From: a virus
Direction: 5' to 3' (one strand)
DNA: 41,194 nucleotides
Virus record (IMG/VR): IMGVR_UViG_3300046459_000822
Span: 1 to 41,194 of that record
Position numbers and translations under genes: made by a program. Shown here one piece after another: positions 8,655 to 29,640 of the stretch. The notes beneath the pieces are model-generated. The model searched no databases. It worked only from the letters and a program-made list of their open reading frames with translations, and was not told the DNA's origin. The number at the start of each line of letters is the position of its first letter. The first letter of the stretch is position 1.

Positions 8655-9878
8655 CTACATCGCCACATAGACCGGGTTGACCAGGCGCAGATCCATACCC
8701 TGAGCCTGGGCCTTGACGACGCCGTTCACGGACCGGAGCACCTGCATCGTCTGCGGGGTGACCTGCTGGAACCCGTCGTAACTCGCAATGACAGGCAGCG
8801 TGTTGGTGTTCGTCGAGGACAGGATGGTGCGGGTGCCGATCGTTCCGGCCGCCGTGAGGGAGGTGTCGGTGACGGTGACGGACCAGCCCGTCGGCTCGTT
8901 CGTGTCGTCCAGCCAGATCTTGGCGTTCAGGGTGCTGCCGGTGATCTGCAGCCGGAGCCGGAACATCTGGCCCGCAGCGTGCGTGAGCCCGGCGTCGGGG
9001 GCGGTAGCGAGCAGCGTCTCTGTGCCGGTCACCCGTTTGCGCAGGGTGAGCGTGACCGTCTGGGTGGTGCTGAAGTCGACGCGTGCCAGGTAGCAGTTGC
9101 TCGTGTCGGCGAACCGGCCGACGAGGTTCACGAAGTGGCTGCCGCCGGTGGCGAGTTTGTCGGTGCCCATGCTGGCGACGATGTCGAGGTCCGCTGATGA
9201 CCACGGGACGGTCGTCCAGTGGGAGACGTTGACGCTGCCGCACAAGACCTTGCCCTGACCGTCGAAAGCGCTGCGGACTGCGGCTACGTAGGTGTTGAAG
9301 GCGGCAGTTCGCTGCCCGGAGTCCCGCATCGTGCGGGAGAGGTCGCCGTTCGGGAAGAAGCTGGCGCGCAGGGCATTGGACATTTCGACCTGTACGCCAG
9401 CGCTGATGGTGGTCTTGTTGGCGATGTTCGCGGGGTCTGATCCGTTGATCTCCTGGGCTGCAGTGATGACGCGGAACCCGGCGTTCTGCAGCGCGGTCTG
9501 GACGCGGGCCGCGGTGGCGGTGTCCAGTCCTCCGATGGAGGTCTCTGCCAGGCCGGTGATGCCGGTATAGCCGTGGAGGGACAGGCAGCGCTGGGCGGCG
9601 GTGACGATGCCCTGCGCGATGGGCTCGTCGAAGTTCGTGCTGGTGACGTGCAGGGTGTCGAAGTTGTTGCTGGCCATGATGCCGGCGAACTCGTAGTGGT
9701 TCATCAGCGTGGCTCCCACAGCGCGCGCTACTTCTCCGGATCCCGCTTCGATGCCGCCGCCGTGGATCGCGATCGCGCACCAGGTCGCCCCGGTTACCGG
9801 TACGGTGCGGCGTTCGTAGTCGACGCCTTCGGTCTGGTGCGCGGCGAGGTCTGTGTAGCTGGCGTACAGGTCCGTCAC
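8655..9878 (-). CDS. Poly-gamma-glutamate hydrolase fused to part of a LamG-like tail domain
   Basis: The 407-aa product has two parts. Residues about 1-207 match the phage poly-gamma-glutamate hydrolase family (PF05908-type, about 208 aa in phage PghP): metal-site motif HGGGIEAGSGE (His39, Glu44), then SNNFDTLHVTSTNFDEP with His77. It would depolymerise a gamma-polyglutamate capsule during adsorption. Residues about 208-390 (from GKVLCGSVNVSHW) are the distal part of a concanavalin/LamG-like tail domain: DLDIVAS, VGRFADTSNCYLARVDFS, LRKRV, PVIASYDGFQ. The start of that domain ends the upstream 940-aa protein. GTG lies 1 nt past the previous stop, without a strong ribosome site, so coupling or frameshifting is likely. 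Confidence 0.8.
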   Translation of the reverse strand: MTDLYASYTDLAAHQTEGVDYERRTVPVTGATWCAIAIHGGGIEAGSGEVARAVGATLMNHYEFAGIMASNNFDTLHVTSTNFDEPIAQGIVTAAQRCLSLHGYTGITGLAETSIGGLDTATAARVQTALQNAGFRVITAAQEINGSDPANIANKTTISAGVQVEMSNALRASFFPNGDLSRTMRDSGQRTAAFNTYVAAVRSAFDGQGKVLCGSVNVSHWTTVPWSSADLDIVASMGTDKLATGGSHFVNLVGRFADTSNCYLARVDFSTTQTVTLTLRKRVTGTETLLATAPDAGLTHAAGQMFRLRLQITGSTLNAKIWLDDTNEPTGWSVTVTDTSLTAAGTIGTRTILSSTNTNTLPVIASYDGFQQVTPQTMQVLRSVNGVVKAQAQGMDLRLVNPVYVAM

Positions 9879-9879
9879 G

Positions 9880-12702
9880 TCATACCCCCTGCACGCTGTA
9901 GTCGGAGGTGGATCCGCCCGTCACGGTCCATGTCTCACCGGTGTCGTCGGTGCCCCAGCCGCCGGCGGCCACCGTGCGGTTGAAGTCGTCGTGGACGGCG
10001 CCCGTGATCCGGATGACGGTCATGACCTCTCCGCTGACGCGGATGTCCATCGGGCACTCGGCCTGATCGGTCGTCCACAGTGGCCCGTCGGTGACGGTCA
10101 CGGACAGCCTGGTCGCGGTGGACGTGACGGATGCGGCGAGTGCACTGCCGTCGGTGTCGGCGTGCCCGTACACGCTGCTGTCGACCACGCCGGCCGTCCA
10201 CGGCTCGCCGGGCACGCAGTTGAACGTGATGAGCCAGGCGTTCGGCCCGGCCTCCTCGGAGTAGCCGGCCACCAGCACGTCGACGGGGTCGGGGCCGTGG
10301 TCCGCCGGGAGGTTCGTCAGGCGGATCTCGTCGCCGCAGTCGATGCGGAGGATGTCGTCGATCAGCGCGTAGACGCGTGCGTTGGCCAGGTTCAGGGTGA
10401 GGCGGGCGTAGCGCACCCCGTCATACGTGCCGAGGTGCAGGCGCATGCCGGCCACCTGGTCGGCCTGGCTGTCCGTGGCGACGCTGTACGTGTACGCCTG
10501 GTCGTACCGGCCCACCCCGCCGTCCTCGGGGTTCTTGACGGACATGGCGCCGTCCTCCAGTACCTCCCTGGCCGGGACCGAGCCGAACTCACGCTGCACC
10601 GACACGTCGTTCTCGGTGAGCTTGTCGTCGTCCACCGGTTTGAACGGCGCCGAGATCAGCCCGGCCGAGAAATCGAGCGTGAGAGCGGGAGGCTGGTTCC
10701 ACAGCGTCGACTGCCCGCGGTGGATGACCTCGGGTGCGTCCCGGCGGTCCAGGAGGTAGCCGAAGTTCGTGGCCGACGCCTCGTTCATCAACTGCAGGAG
10801 CTTCTTGCGTCCCTGGATGCCCATGGGCTGCTGGTAGACCGACTCGCCCGCGGTGCTGGCCACGTAGGCGGCCTCGGTCGCCAGGCGCTCGATACGGTCC
10901 CCGGCACGCTCGCCCTGGAAGCCCATGTACGCGGTGTACATGTCGGCGGCGGAGGGGCCGTTGCCGTCCCAGTAGGTGAGGTAGCCGAACGACCGGTCCG
11001 TCATGGTGACGCCGGCGAGGGTGAGGAATCCCCATCCCAAGAGCACGCTCTGCGCGGACTTCATCACGATGCTGGCGATCGTGCCGCTGCCGAGGAGTGC
11101 GCCGTCGACGTACAGGTACCAGAGGGTGGACGAGGCCTGCGGGTCGATGGACAGCCGGATGTGGTGGGGGTCCTCGTTGTAGATCCCCACGCCGTCGACG
11201 TTGGCCAGCAGGCCGACGCTGGACGACGAGTCCCCGTCGGACTGGCGGATGACCGAGAGCCGGTCGAGGTTGCCGGTGAAGATGATCTCAATCAGAACCC
11301 GGTTGTCCGCGTCGGTGCCCGCCCCACGGTCGAAGACGGTGAACTGGCCCGAGCTCGGGGTCCCGCCGCCGGACAGGAAGAGGTCCACGGACCAGAAGTC
11401 GTCTGTCCCCGTGGTGCGCCGGAAGGCGCCCCGGATGTCCCCGGAGGTGTTCGCCTTCACGGACAGGCACGGCTCGATCCAGTCGGCCAGCTTGCCCTCC
11501 GCCCAGCCGGCGGCCGTGTCCGTACCGATGACGATTTCCTGCCGCACGTCCGAGCCGCCCACCATGGACTTGGCGCCCAGGGAGGTGGGGCCGTCGGTGA
11601 GCGGCCAGCACTCGACGGGGCCGTGAAACTTGATGAACCGCAGCAGCGCGGAGTCGACGGGCTTGTTACCCGCATCCGTACGGCGCGTCACCCCGGCCGG
11701 GGTGACGCTGACGTAGTTGTCCTTGAGAGACAGGTCCCTCGTCGGCGGCCAGGCGGGCACCTCGCCGGCCATGCGGATGTGCTTGTTCGTGAGGATCGCG
11801 CTGCCCTGCTTGGTCCACGTCAGGCCGGTGGCGTCGACGAACGACGTGCCGCCCGCGGTGGCCGCGCTGGTCTTCATATTGACCTTGATGGTGGTGCTGT
11901 CCAGCAGCTTCAGCGCGTACACCTTGCCGCGCAGCCGGTTGAGGACGCCGCCGCTGGGCAGCGCGTTGAACGCGGTGCCGCAACCGATCTCCAGCGGCGC
12001 GGTGCCGGGGAAAACCGAGGTGGTGGCCGCGCCCACGATCGGGGACCCGAGCAGGTTCCACTCGGTGTCGTCGACCGTGCGGCCGGTGTAGAACCGCAGC
12101 TCGTAGCCGCCCGCCCCGTTGCTGATGTCGAGGACGACGCGCAGGGCGAGGCGCTGCCCGTTGTAGGCCTTCAGCTCCTCGGTGCACGTCTGTGCGATAC
12201 GACTGGCGAACGTGCCGTCGGGCGACCACATGAACATGGGGAAGCCGCCCACCATCTCCAGGGCCCACAGCTCGGCGCTGCCCGGGATGTAGCGCAGGCA
12301 CAGCATCTGCGACTCGGCCCAGCTCTCCAGGGCGACGTCGAGACGCAGGTCGAAGTCACCGCTCACGTCCAGGGCCGCGGCGTCCGGGGTCTCCAGGGCG
12401 TCACTGCCCAGGCCGCCCGCCATGGCGGCCCACGGCGTGCCGGCCGTGTAGCCGAACCGCATCGGCGTGTTCCGGCCGATCAGGTCGTACAGCGGCGAGA
12501 CCGGGTTGCGCGGGGCGTACCGGTTGTCGCGGCTGTCCAGATCGCACGCACCCATGGTCGGCTCGGCGTCCGACGCGGACTCGGACGACAGACCCCTGGT
12601 GATCGTCACGGCCGAGGTCGCCACGCGGACGTCGTCGGTGATGGTGTTCCAGGCGCCGCTGTAGAACAGCTCCGCCCACACGGGCGGGGGCAGGTTCGGC
12701 AT
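9880..12702 (-). CDS. Large minor tail protein with LamG-like domains
   Basis: This 940-aa protein follows the tape measure, the place of distal tail and central-spike proteins. The N-terminal 110 residues (WAELFYSGAWNTITDDVRV, then DLDSRDNRYAPRNPVSPLYD) are typical of actinophage minor tail proteins. Beta-sandwich segments around residues 120-270 and 380-590 resemble concanavalin/LamG folds (RIEFYT-like strands, SIDPQASSTLWYLYVDG). The last about 40 residues (DDFNRTVAAGGWGTDDTGET and DYSVQGV) begin another LamG-like domain that is cut by the stop; its remainder lies in the next gene. A G5 run abuts that stop. GAGGGG precedes the ATG. Confidence 0.8.
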   Translation of the reverse strand: MPNLPPPVWAELFYSGAWNTITDDVRVATSAVTITRGLSSESASDAEPTMGACDLDSRDNRYAPRNPVSPLYDLIGRNTPMRFGYTAGTPWAAMAGGLGSDALETPDAAALDVSGDFDLRLDVALESWAESQMLCLRYIPGSAELWALEMVGGFPMFMWSPDGTFASRIAQTCTEELKAYNGQRLALRVVLDISNGAGGYELRFYTGRTVDDTEWNLLGSPIVGAATTSVFPGTAPLEIGCGTAFNALPSGGVLNRLRGKVYALKLLDSTTIKVNMKTSAATAGGTSFVDATGLTWTKQGSAILTNKHIRMAGEVPAWPPTRDLSLKDNYVSVTPAGVTRRTDAGNKPVDSALLRFIKFHGPVECWPLTDGPTSLGAKSMVGGSDVRQEIVIGTDTAAGWAEGKLADWIEPCLSVKANTSGDIRGAFRRTTGTDDFWSVDLFLSGGGTPSSGQFTVFDRGAGTDADNRVLIEIIFTGNLDRLSVIRQSDGDSSSSVGLLANVDGVGIYNEDPHHIRLSIDPQASSTLWYLYVDGALLGSGTIASIVMKSAQSVLLGWGFLTLAGVTMTDRSFGYLTYWDGNGPSAADMYTAYMGFQGERAGDRIERLATEAAYVASTAGESVYQQPMGIQGRKKLLQLMNEASATNFGYLLDRRDAPEVIHRGQSTLWNQPPALTLDFSAGLISAPFKPVDDDKLTENDVSVQREFGSVPAREVLEDGAMSVKNPEDGGVGRYDQAYTYSVATDSQADQVAGMRLHLGTYDGVRYARLTLNLANARVYALIDDILRIDCGDEIRLTNLPADHGPDPVDVLVAGYSEEAGPNAWLITFNCVPGEPWTAGVVDSSVYGHADTDGSALAASVTSTATRLSVTVTDGPLWTTDQAECPMDIRVSGEVMTVIRITGAVHDDFNRTVAAGGWGTDDTGETWTVTGGSTSDYSVQGV

Positions 12703-25077: not shown

Positions 25078-26652
25078 TTACGAAGCCGCAGGTGTTCCGA
25101 CGGAGACGTAGAAGCTGGCAGGCATCTTGGTGTCTTTGTCTGTTACAGCTGAGGTCGCCCGCTGTGGCGTCAGGGACAGGACGCCTGATAGGTCAGCCCC
25201 GCTCAGGTTGGCCTTCGTGAGCGTCGCCCTGAACAGGTCGGCCTTCGTGAGCGTGGCCTGCCTCAGGTTGGCCTTCGTGAGCGTGGCCTGCCTCAGGTTG
25301 GCCTTCGTGAGCGTGGCCTGGCTCAGGTTGGCCTCCGTGAGCGTCGCCCCGAGCAGGCTGGCACCCGTGAGCGTCGCTACGCTCAGGTCGGCCTTCGTGA
25401 GCGTCGCCCTGAACAGGTCGGCCTTCGTGAGCGTCGCTTCGCTCAGGTTGGCCTCCGTGAGCGTGGCCTGGCTCAGGTTGGCCTCCGTGAGCGTCGCCCC
25501 GCTCAGGTTGGCACCCGTGAGCGTCGCCCCGCTCAGGTCGGCCTTCGTGAGCGTCGCTTCGCTCAGGTTGGCCTCCGTGAGCGTCGCTTGGCTCAGGTTG
25601 GCCTCCGTGAGCGTCGCTCCGACCAGGTTGGCCTCCGTGAGGGTCGCCATGTACAGGGAGGCCCCCGTGAGTGTCGCCCCGACCAGGAAGGCCTCCGTGA
25701 GCGACGCCCGGCTCAGTGAGGCCTTTGTGAGCGTCGCCCCGCTCAGGTTGGCACCCGTGAACGTCGCCATGTACAGGTCGGCCTCCGTGAGCGTCGCCCC
25801 GCTCAGGTTGGCCTTCGTGAGCGTCGCCCCGCTCAGGTTGGCCTTCGTGAGCGTCGCATCGCTCAGGTCGGCCTTCGTGAGCGTCGCCCCGGACAGATCG
25901 GCTTGGGTGAGGTCGGCGCCGCCGAGGCTGGCGCTGGCGAGGTGGAGGCCGTGGAGGTCTAGTTTTTCGCGTGGGTCGACGTGAGTGCGCGACTCGGTAC
26001 GGGTGAGGGCCGTGAGGGCTGCTTGCACGTCGGCACTGGGCTCGGCGGGCAAATCGCCGTTGTGGGTATCCGGATTGTCGGGACTGGCCCTGTCGGGGTC
26101 TGGGGTGGGCGCGCTCTTGGGGGCGCGGTGGCGGATGAAGTGGCCGAGGACGCGGGCGGCGTCGGTGGCGGCTTGTTCAGGGGCGTCCTGCACGATCTGT
26201 TCGAGGGCGAGGATGCCGCCGATGCGTACGTAGATTTCGGGTGAGCCGAGGCGTTCGAGGGCTTTGGTAAAGCGGTCGGTGATCTGGCCTCGCCGGGTGA
26301 GGCGGTAGGTGCGGGCGGTGTAGAGCAGGGCGATGCCAGCGCCGAGCGCGGCGGTGAAGGCGACGACAGCAGTACGCAGGCCGGTGACGAGGGCTGCTGA
26401 GCCCTTGGTCAGTTCGGTGCGGTCTATGTATTTGGCGTCGATGATGTACGGTCCGCGCCACACTAGCCAGGGCAGCAGCACGAGTAATACGAGTCCGCCG
26501 GCCGCAATCAAAGCGATCATGCCCCACCATCGGGCGCGCTCCGTGCGGCGGGCTCGTGCCCTTCGCTGCTCCAGCCCAGTCATGTCCAGCCATTCGCTCC
26601 GGCGTCGGGTGTGCCGTTGTCGGAGGGAGCGCACGGGGTGTGGTGTTCTCAT
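25078..26652 (-). CDS. Membrane-anchored pentapeptide-repeat protein
   Basis: The product is 524 aa from ATG 26652; start uncertain (26583, 26664 and a GTG at 26757 are in frame, none with a strong ribosome site). A basic N-terminus is followed by two membrane helices (WWGMIALIAAGGLVLLVLLP; VVAFTAALGAGIALLYTA), a helical linker (LTRRGQITDRFTKALERLGS), then about 50 pentapeptides of the A(D/N)LSX type from about residue 250, arranged in decapeptides such as ADLSGATLTK. Pentapeptide repeats form a right-handed quadrilateral helix; some mimic DNA and block gyrase. The membrane anchoring points instead to an envelope or cytoplasmic-face role. It lies between HNH and terminase genes, not a structural position. 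Confidence 0.8.
   Translation of the reverse strand: MRTPHPVRSLRQRHTRRRSEWLDMTGLEQRRARARRTERARWWGMIALIAAGGLVLLVLLPWLVWRGPYIIDAKYIDRTELTKGSAALVTGLRTAVVAFTAALGAGIALLYTARTYRLTRRGQITDRFTKALERLGSPEIYVRIGGILALEQIVQDAPEQAATDAARVLGHFIRHRAPKSAPTPDPDRASPDNPDTHNGDLPAEPSADVQAALTALTRTESRTHVDPREKLDLHGLHLASASLGGADLTQADLSGATLTKADLSDATLTKANLSGATLTKANLSGATLTEADLYMATFTGANLSGATLTKASLSRASLTEAFLVGATLTGASLYMATLTEANLVGATLTEANLSQATLTEANLSEATLTKADLSGATLTGANLSGATLTEANLSQATLTEANLSEATLTKADLFRATLTKADLSVATLTGASLLGATLTEANLSQATLTKANLRQATLTKANLRQATLTKADLFRATLTKANLSGADLSGVLSLTPQRATSAVTDKDTKMPASFYVSVGTPAAS
25195..25905 (-). repeat. Tandem 30-bp coding minisatellite
   Basis: About 24 copies of a 30-bp unit encode decapeptides of the pentapeptide protein. 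Unit boundaries repeat strings like GTGAGCGTCGCCCCGCTCAG on the plus strand; many copies differ at only a few bases, suggesting recent amplification or gene conversion and a likely copy-number variable tract. Confidence 0.8.
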
Positions 26653-26823
26653 GTCCCCGTACATGCCGATCTGGCGCTGTTCGGTTGCGGCCGTACCTTT
26701 CTCGCAGGCAGTAGAACGGGTCGGCTCTCCGACGGACTCGCCTACACCGCACAGCACGCACGACGTTGCGCCAGGGCGATCAGCCCGGCCTCGGTCAGTT
26801 GCAAGGTGTGAAGGGTGAGCTGT

Positions 26824-28308: not shown

Positions 28309-29640
28309 TCAGGGGTAAGTGGGCGGAGGGACGTCCTTGAGGGCGGTCTCCATGCCGAGCAGTCCGGCGTCAAGGGCGCCCTGCTGCATCCAGAGGGTTA
28401 CCTGCTTCCAGCGCTCGGCTGCGTCGGCCATGTCGAGTGCGGGGTTGGCGAGGAGGTGGAACCCGAGCGACGGACCGGCGTTTGGGATCGGCTTCAAGCC
28501 GGTGGTGTCGAGCACCTCGGTGACCGGCCGCCCCATGATGATGTGGAGGTTTTGGGGCTGTGGGACGGCCAGAGGGTCGATGGCGGCGAGGTCGGCCAGC
28601 GGCTCGACGACTTCCCGGCTGACGAACGTTTGCACCATCGCGTCCATGAGCTGAGCGAGCTCTTGAACACCGATCCGTCGTCGGGTGAACTCGGCTGCGC
28701 CGCTGCCCTGTTGCAGCGCGTTGGCCATGTCGCTGGTCCTCACGATGACGTCTAGTTCGACATGGAGGCGCTGGCTCTGGTGCCCGTACGAGCCCGGAAC
28801 CTGAACGTGAGCGATCGCCTGCACCGGATATTCCCTGCCTGTGGGCCAGTTCTCAGGAGCCCCTGACCACTGCAACCGCAGATCACGAGCGCGGTTGTGC
28901 CCTTCCCGGTGGAAGGGGTTGAGCCCGCCGCTCCACGCTGGGCCCAGGCTCATACGTCCGAGCACGCTGCTGAGCCGGGACTGGTTGAGGGCATCTGTGA
29001 ACGCGTCGATGCTGCGTTCCGAGAGAGGACGCCACAGCGCCTCGGCGGAGACCGGAACGTTCAGGCCGGTCCGAGCGACGAAGTCCATGTCCTGATCGAC
29101 CTGAGGAGGGGCCTGGAGATGCCATGCCTGCTCTGGCTCCAGGGCGGTCTGGCTGAACAGTTGCTTGAGTCGTTGCCAGCCCGCCGGGTGAGTGGTGCTG
29201 TGGTCCCGCACGTAGGCGACCCCATCGACCAGGAGCGGGCTGGGGTGCTGGCCGGGGACAACGCGGAGAACGAGCACGTACCGCCCTGAGTCGTCGTCCA
29301 TGGGGACGGGAATGATCTCGGGGACCCAGGGCGGTTCGATCTTGGCATGGCAGTGGTCTGCGACGTAGTCGACGGTCTGTTCCTTGACGCCCTTGAGTTC
29401 CCGGGTCCTGTCGGTGACGCCGATCAGCAGGAGGCCACCGTACGTATTGGCAAGCGCCGCAACACCCCGGGCGACGCTGTCGGCCATCTTTTCCTTGTAC
29501 TCGACCGTCGGCGACTCGGGACCGATCTGGTTTACCAGGGCACGCACCCGCGCGATCGTGAACTCCGACGGCGCCGCGTGAAGCAGTGACAGTGTTGAAA
29601 CCACGACCGGCATCATCCTCATCCGCCAGCTGAGCAGCAA
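28309..29640 (-). CDS. Schlafen/AlbA_2-domain protein
   Basis: The product is 443 aa from TTG (29640, GGAG upstream); an ATG at 29622 is also possible. The segment around residues 45-75, VEYKEKMADSVARGVAAL and ANTYGGLLLIGV, is the AlbA_2 (Schlafen-type, PF04326) pattern ExK...AxANTxGGxLxIGV. Such proteins act as nucleic-acid-binding or defence proteins. The C-terminal part is unlike known domains to me. It lies between the HTH gene and the methyltransferase. Confidence 0.7.
   Translation of the reverse strand: MLLSWRMRMMPVVVSTLSLLHAAPSEFTIARVRALVNQIGPESPTVEYKEKMADSVARGVAALANTYGGLLLIGVTDRTRELKGVKEQTVDYVADHCHAKIEPPWVPEIIPVPMDDDSGRYVLVLRVVPGQHPSPLLVDGVAYVRDHSTTHPAGWQRLKQLFSQTALEPEQAWHLQAPPQVDQDMDFVARTGLNVPVSAEALWRPLSERSIDAFTDALNQSRLSSVLGRMSLGPAWSGGLNPFHREGHNRARDLRLQWSGAPENWPTGREYPVQAIAHVQVPGSYGHQSQRLHVELDVIVRTSDMANALQQGSGAAEFTRRRIGVQELAQLMDAMVQTFVSREVVEPLADLAAIDPLAVPQPQNLHIIMGRPVTEVLDTTGLKPIPNAGPSLGFHLLANPALDMADAAERWKQVTLWMQQGALDAGLLGMETALKDVPPPTYP

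Follow-up and report, generated by a model that had tools for sequence, protein, structure and literature searches.

When a phage tail gene stops inside a structural domain and the enzyme gene behind it takes up the same domain again, the question arises whether one protein or two are made, and whether the break is an error or a lasting feature. We have addressed this question for a 41 kb virus record from IMG/VR (IMGVR_UViG_3300046459_000822; 41,194 nucleotides, G+C 69%), the whole of which is referred to here as the window. Integrase, capsid, tape measure and lysis genes are all present in the window, which on this gene content is from a temperate siphophage-type virus, and its relatives are located in Streptomyces genomes. 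A first-pass annotation had described a 940-aa tail protein ending in the first part of a LamG-like domain and a second protein that opens with a poly-gamma-glutamate (PGA) hydrolase and then resumes that domain, and had offered four explanations: a recombination chimera, a split domain, a +1 frameshift or a sequencing error. The split domain proves to be the correct option. Our preferred explanation, which we hold to be probable, is an insertional fission, conserved since, of a single tail domain, the parts of which would reassemble and clamp the hydrolase to the tail.

The tail protein is encoded by open reading frame (ORF) 1 (940 aa; 9880–12702, minus strand), which immediately follows the tape measure gene, matches phrog_5313 (E 1.3e-240) and is homologous to the 'minor tail protein' Dubu gp16 and PHTowN gp24. 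ORF2 (407 aa, hydrolase plus C-part; 8655–9878, minus strand, GTG start at 9876–9878) is the next gene after it. The C terminus of ORF1 reads ...DDFNRTVAAGGWGTDDTGETWTVTGGSTSDYSVQGV* (final residues DYSVQGV) and stops inside a ConA/LamG-like beta-sandwich after about 36 residues; this N-part (9883–9993, minus strand; three short strands) scores 56 bits against its profile and is closed by a TGA codon (9880–9882, minus strand). After the hydrolase, ORF2 continues GQGKVLCGSVNVSHW..., that is, with the remainder of the ORF1 beta-sandwich; its C-part core (8754–9248, minus strand) scores 318 bits against the C-part profile, and ORF2 residues 224–406 match positions 888–1065 of phrog_24476 (E 2e-34). 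When the last residues of ORF1 are joined to ORF2 from about residue 201, the resulting chain can be aligned over its whole length with proteins encoded by one ORF, and in the Streptomyces phages Dubu, PHTowN, Dagobah, Wentworth and phiRKBJ001 both stretches are contiguous within one protein. The stretches in ORF1 and ORF2 are therefore the same domain, as the first-pass annotation had maintained. ORF2 ends in a motif of about 30 aa (8658–8753, minus strand; QxxxVxRSVNGVxKxxxxGxxxxLxxPxxxAL / QxFTVTRSVNGVVKxHxAGxDVRLAxPxxxAL), which also terminates many otherwise unrelated tail-type proteins of actinobacterial phages and prophages (L136–L150), including some that have no beta-sandwich, and is possibly an assembly or docking signal.

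The label 'LamG-like' holds as a description of the fold but not of a Pfam family, as neither ORF1 nor ORF2 matches LamG or Laminin_G at E<=1. The fold was tested on an intact relative, L030, rather than on a reassembled split pair: the AlphaFold model of its N- and C-parts together is a jelly roll with a predicted local distance difference test (pLDDT) score of 91 and a predicted template modelling (pTM) score of 0.85. The N-part is integral to this model, contributing short strands at positions of pLDDT 94–97, and the split point falls in the turn between strands 41–44 and 48–52; the last 30 or so residues are poorly placed (pLDDT 55–72, and about 55–60 over the C-terminal motif). A Foldseek search with the model returned ConA-like lectin/glucanase folds, among them GH43 C-terminal domains, CBM66 4b1m (target-normalized TM score, TMt, 0.76) and ERGIC-53, as well as the central fibre gp20 of mycobacteriophage Douge (8zdp, E 2.5e-6), a phage whose glycan-binding-type (ConA-like, CBM-like) domains bind the host surface (PMC13033339). 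For ORF2 residues 270–348 (about 8834–9071, minus strand), phmmer also gave a weak hit (E 0.35) to the SPbeta prophage protein YomS (PDB 6i5o), which may be a related beta-sandwich protein of small size.

Related loci were sought in IMG/VR and GTDB genomes with two profiles, one of the N-part (36 aa) and one of the C-part (199 columns). About 100 loci proved to be intact, with N- and C-parts 4–19 residues apart in a single ORF, so that the uninterrupted domain does exist in related phages. In every split locus the two parts are about 205–215 residues apart, the gap being filled by the PGA hydrolase and the whole spread over two ORFs. There are 15 distinct loci of this kind, namely the window (W), L003–L007, L024, L029, L031, L101 (S. 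laculatispora), L102 (S. odonnellii; the same as L026), L153/L183, L210, L213 and L217; all are broken at the same beta-turn by the same enzyme, and the stop codon lies no more than 1–2 residues from the same Gly. The arrangement is conserved and also rare (3 carriers among approximately 790 Streptomycetaceae genomes sampled). No enzyme other than PGA hydrolase was found at this turn among the 80 best viral matches, 51 genome matches and matches from the approximately 790 Streptomycetaceae genomes that were examined, and a DNA pattern search for the N-part followed by a stop returned the known split loci together with matches that do not have the domain. Two candidates were set aside: L120, called split by script, is read as a damaged intact copy with no hydrolase, a 32-residue gap and shifted frames, and the short frame in G277 (L182) taken for a C-part also contains the N-part.

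The enzyme occupies ORF2 residues 1–203 (9270–9878, minus strand). PF05908 is matched at residues 5–200 (E 1.1e-50), over the full profile (1–191) and with 172 bits against a gathering cut-off of 22, which bears out the earlier identification as a PGA hydrolase, and matches were obtained to PDB entries 21dc (E 1.1e-31) and 3a9l (E 2.7e-24). Residues H39, E44, H77, T79, S80, H102 and E165 are invariant in the alignment of the split set; they include the zinc ligands (His/Glu/His) and the catalytic His, Thr and Glu, as assigned by motif to residues of PghP/PghL (PMC6506827) and in agreement with the alignment to 21dc. The active site is thus apparently intact, and hydrolysis of gamma-PGA is predicted. 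Genes for gamma-PGA synthesis occur in Streptomyces, among others (PMC6506827). Two further phages carry the hydrolase and the entire N+C domain within one ORF, with further domains after it (L215, 4001–6001; L220, 3917–5980), and this enzyme therefore goes with the complete domain. In L008 (6001–7680) it is fused at the N terminus of a phrog_837-type minor tail protein, as judged by a profile match, and L187 was assigned to the same type of fusion on account of a similar length and a closely related hydrolase; taken with L215 and L220, these fusions show that the hydrolase has repeatedly been associated with tail proteins. Three Streptomyces genome loci (L154, L155 and L157) have a PGA hydrolase of this group with the C-part missing or degraded and are apparent prophage remnants.

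Both parts of the domain are kept under normal constraint. Over 12 split loci the mean amino acid identity and the ratio of non-synonymous to synonymous differences (pN/pS) were, respectively, 0.62 and 0.51 for the N-part, 0.66 and 0.47 for the hydrolase, 0.59 and 0.54 for the C-core, and 0.43 and 0.77 for the upstream tail, all of these being relative measures, with pS near saturation and a gappy upstream alignment. At matched C-core identity the N-part is no less similar between split pairs than between intact pairs (0.59 vs 0.56 at C-core identity 0.5–0.6; 0.68 vs 0.60 at 0.6–0.7), and its positions D, F/Y, R, W, W and G persist in split loci. The window and L003 share 75–77% identity in the N-part, 82% in the hydrolase and 79% in the C-core, with the tail body mostly at 17–56%. 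In most relatives the identity of ORF1 to the window climbs towards the N-part, L029 with its close tail body being the exception; the N-part has therefore been inherited with ORF2 and not with the body of its own gene.

The 12 split C-cores tested first form one clade (SH-like approximate likelihood ratio test, SH-aLRT, 83), and for all 15 a tree that keeps them together beats the free search (approximately unbiased test, p-AU 0.81). These trees fit a common origin of the split sequences, the simplest history being a single event that has long been maintained. The recombination chimera of the first-pass annotation survives in part, in that the split probably arose by one ancient insertion or recombination; L215 and L220, in which the hydrolase stands with the whole domain, lie near the split group but on long branches. 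The CAGGG that had been pointed out at both joints is present near both in the window but is conserved at neither across the other split loci, and it was rejected as an unreliable recombination scar. In the tree of the PGA domain, split copies are intermixed with other arrangements, from which it follows that the enzyme itself has moved further.

The joint between the two genes, CAGGGGGTATGACGTG on the coding strand, allowed the possibility of a single product to be assessed. The G5 run (CCCCC on the plus strand at 9885–9889) was confirmed on re-reading, and an independent 13.2 kb contig, L002, with 6 mismatches to the window and no gaps, is identical at the joint, this run included. In the window and in L003 the G5 run is accompanied by an open +1 frame, which speaks for programmed +1 frameshifting (or stop readthrough) into one protein of about 1,347 residues with the enzyme as a loop. 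However, only three of the 15 split loci are in the +1 relation (W, L003 and L029), so that neither a conserved +1 relation nor a conserved slippery site was found; five are in +2 (L004, L006, L102, L210 and L217), and seven are in frame 0 with a stop between (L005, L007, L024, L031, L101, L153 and L213), TGA, TAA and TAG all being used. As both the frame relation and the stop codon vary, no single recoding mechanism fits, readthrough included. Moreover, the enzyme was in no case found between N- and C-parts within one ORF, and each of the 12 split loci examined has its own ATG or GTG start with a Shine–Dalgarno sequence at normal spacing, stop and start being separated by a few bases, as in coupled translation. 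In the window this sequence is CAGGGGG (9885–9891, minus strand), which also encodes Gln-Gly of ORF1 and has a duplex energy of -10.7 kcal/mol with the 16S tail. Predicted anti-Shine–Dalgarno pairing ranged from -6.6 to -11.4 kcal/mol (mean -9.6) in the 12 split loci, compared with a mean of -4.2 kcal/mol at the homologous site of 104 intact loci (Mann–Whitney p 3e-8, relatedness ignored). The G5 run is thus best read, from its predicted pairing, as part of the Shine–Dalgarno sequence of ORF2, and we reject frameshifting and readthrough as a conserved mechanism, a joined product being very improbable. An error of sequencing or assembly is likewise rejected, as is decay of a prophage gene, the chance of either being negligible. 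The window is indeed an uncultivated-virus record and a related prophage copy, L154, is degraded, but the joint recurs in L002 and the same organization, with purifying-type substitution patterns, is seen in 14 further loci from other samples and from isolate genomes.

In the mechanism we propose, the coding sequence of the hydrolase sits in a beta-turn of the sandwich at the end of a siphophage tail protein, equipped with a ribosome-binding site and start codon of its own and preceded by a stop. Two products are made, probably by coupled termination and re-initiation, one being the tail protein with the N-part and the other the hydrolase with the C-part, and at assembly the N- and C-parts would unite non-covalently into one beta-sandwich. 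The reunited sandwich would clamp the hydrolase onto the tail, where it would cut a gamma-glutamyl polymer of the Streptomyces surface during adsorption, either capsule or, possibly, gamma-D-Glu links. The retention of both parts through long divergence suggests that the two proteins snap together; docking of this kind in the virion, with the tail protein giving the first strands and the enzyme the rest of one lectin-like sandwich, we regard as an even chance. Attachment would then be achieved neither by fusion nor by a dedicated adaptor, the sandwich being complete only when both proteins meet. Several points count against this explanation. The split loci are one lineage, so their number is not a number of independent events. 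The binding of N-part to C-part, the presence of ORF2 in the virion and the activity of the hydrolase are all deduced from sequence. An AlphaFold model of the L005 read-through chain (split rows only) had a mean pLDDT of 59.6, with the N-part at 27–45; because even the known hydrolase fold was poor in this model, it speaks neither for nor against reassembly.

The C-part strands alone nevertheless reached pLDDT 80–90 in that fused model although the N-part was not placed, as might be expected if the two proteins were independent, with a C-part that is stable or self-completing (e.g. domain-swapped) and an N-part that is a relic or a tail-capping element. We think this unlikely: a relic should decay, yet conservation of the N-part does not fall below that seen in intact proteins and the N-part travels with ORF2. 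The only C-cores scoring well for which no N-part was found, either within their own ORF or closing the ORF before it, are those of the remote members L132 and L134. ORF2 might otherwise be held on the virion by the motif at its C terminus or by some other tail protein, with the C-part serving as a partner-free host-glycan-binding domain; the occurrence of that motif on so many other actinobacterial tail-type proteins and the surface-glycan binding by ConA-like/CBM-like domains in Douge (PMC13033339) are in its favour. This arrangement would leave unexplained both the retention of the N-part in ORF1 and a stop at exactly the same residue, and we judge it improbable.

Elsewhere in the window, genes for a Schlafen/AlbA_2-domain protein (28309–29640, minus strand) and a long pentapeptide-repeat protein (25078–26757, minus strand) were observed.

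It is rare for fission inside one globular domain to be conserved, and in this case the approximately 100 unsplit relatives provide a built-in control. If the parts do reassemble, the locus would represent a natural split-protein tag working in the virion and a route by which tail enzymes could be gained without fitting both enzyme termini into a loop. The two parts (36 aa and about 190 aa) would then also lend themselves, as a ready-made pair, to studies of how cargo is attached to tails. For annotation, it cautions that an enzyme gene behind a truncated-looking tail gene is not necessarily an error.

Split proteins and insertional gene fission are already known (PMC5374615, PMC3464245), but in the open-licence literature searched we found no precedent for an enzyme gene that splits a tail domain of a phage. 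The ORF2 hydrolase has its zinc ligand and catalytic Glu positions in common with PghP/PghL of Bacillus phages (PF05908, MEROPS M86; PMC6506827); the Bacillus phage hydrolases listed match over the hydrolase domain only, whereas in ORF2 the enzyme is joined to the greater part of a tail domain, the remainder of which is on the neighbouring gene. Proteins of the Dubu gp16/PHTowN gp24 type (phrog_5313 + phrog_24476) share with the window the tail protein, the beta-sandwich, the C-terminal motif and the place after the tape measure gene, but their domain is uninterrupted in one ORF and they have no hydrolase. The ConA-like fold, CBM66-type modules and Douge gp20 resemble the split domain in fold, yet are single-chain domains with 7–19% sequence identity to it. 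L215, L220, L008 and L187 carry the same enzyme on tail-type proteins but, unlike the split pair, as covalent single-chain fusions. Parallels in principle are mitochondrial cox2 of Campsomeris/Dielis wasps (PMC5374615) and naturally split proteins such as split-Doa10 (PMC3464245), in which fission has left two complementary genes whose products are inferred to associate. In those cases the interrupted protein simply works as two pieces, whereas the phage split adds an enzyme to one of the pieces and its break lies inside one small beta-sandwich.

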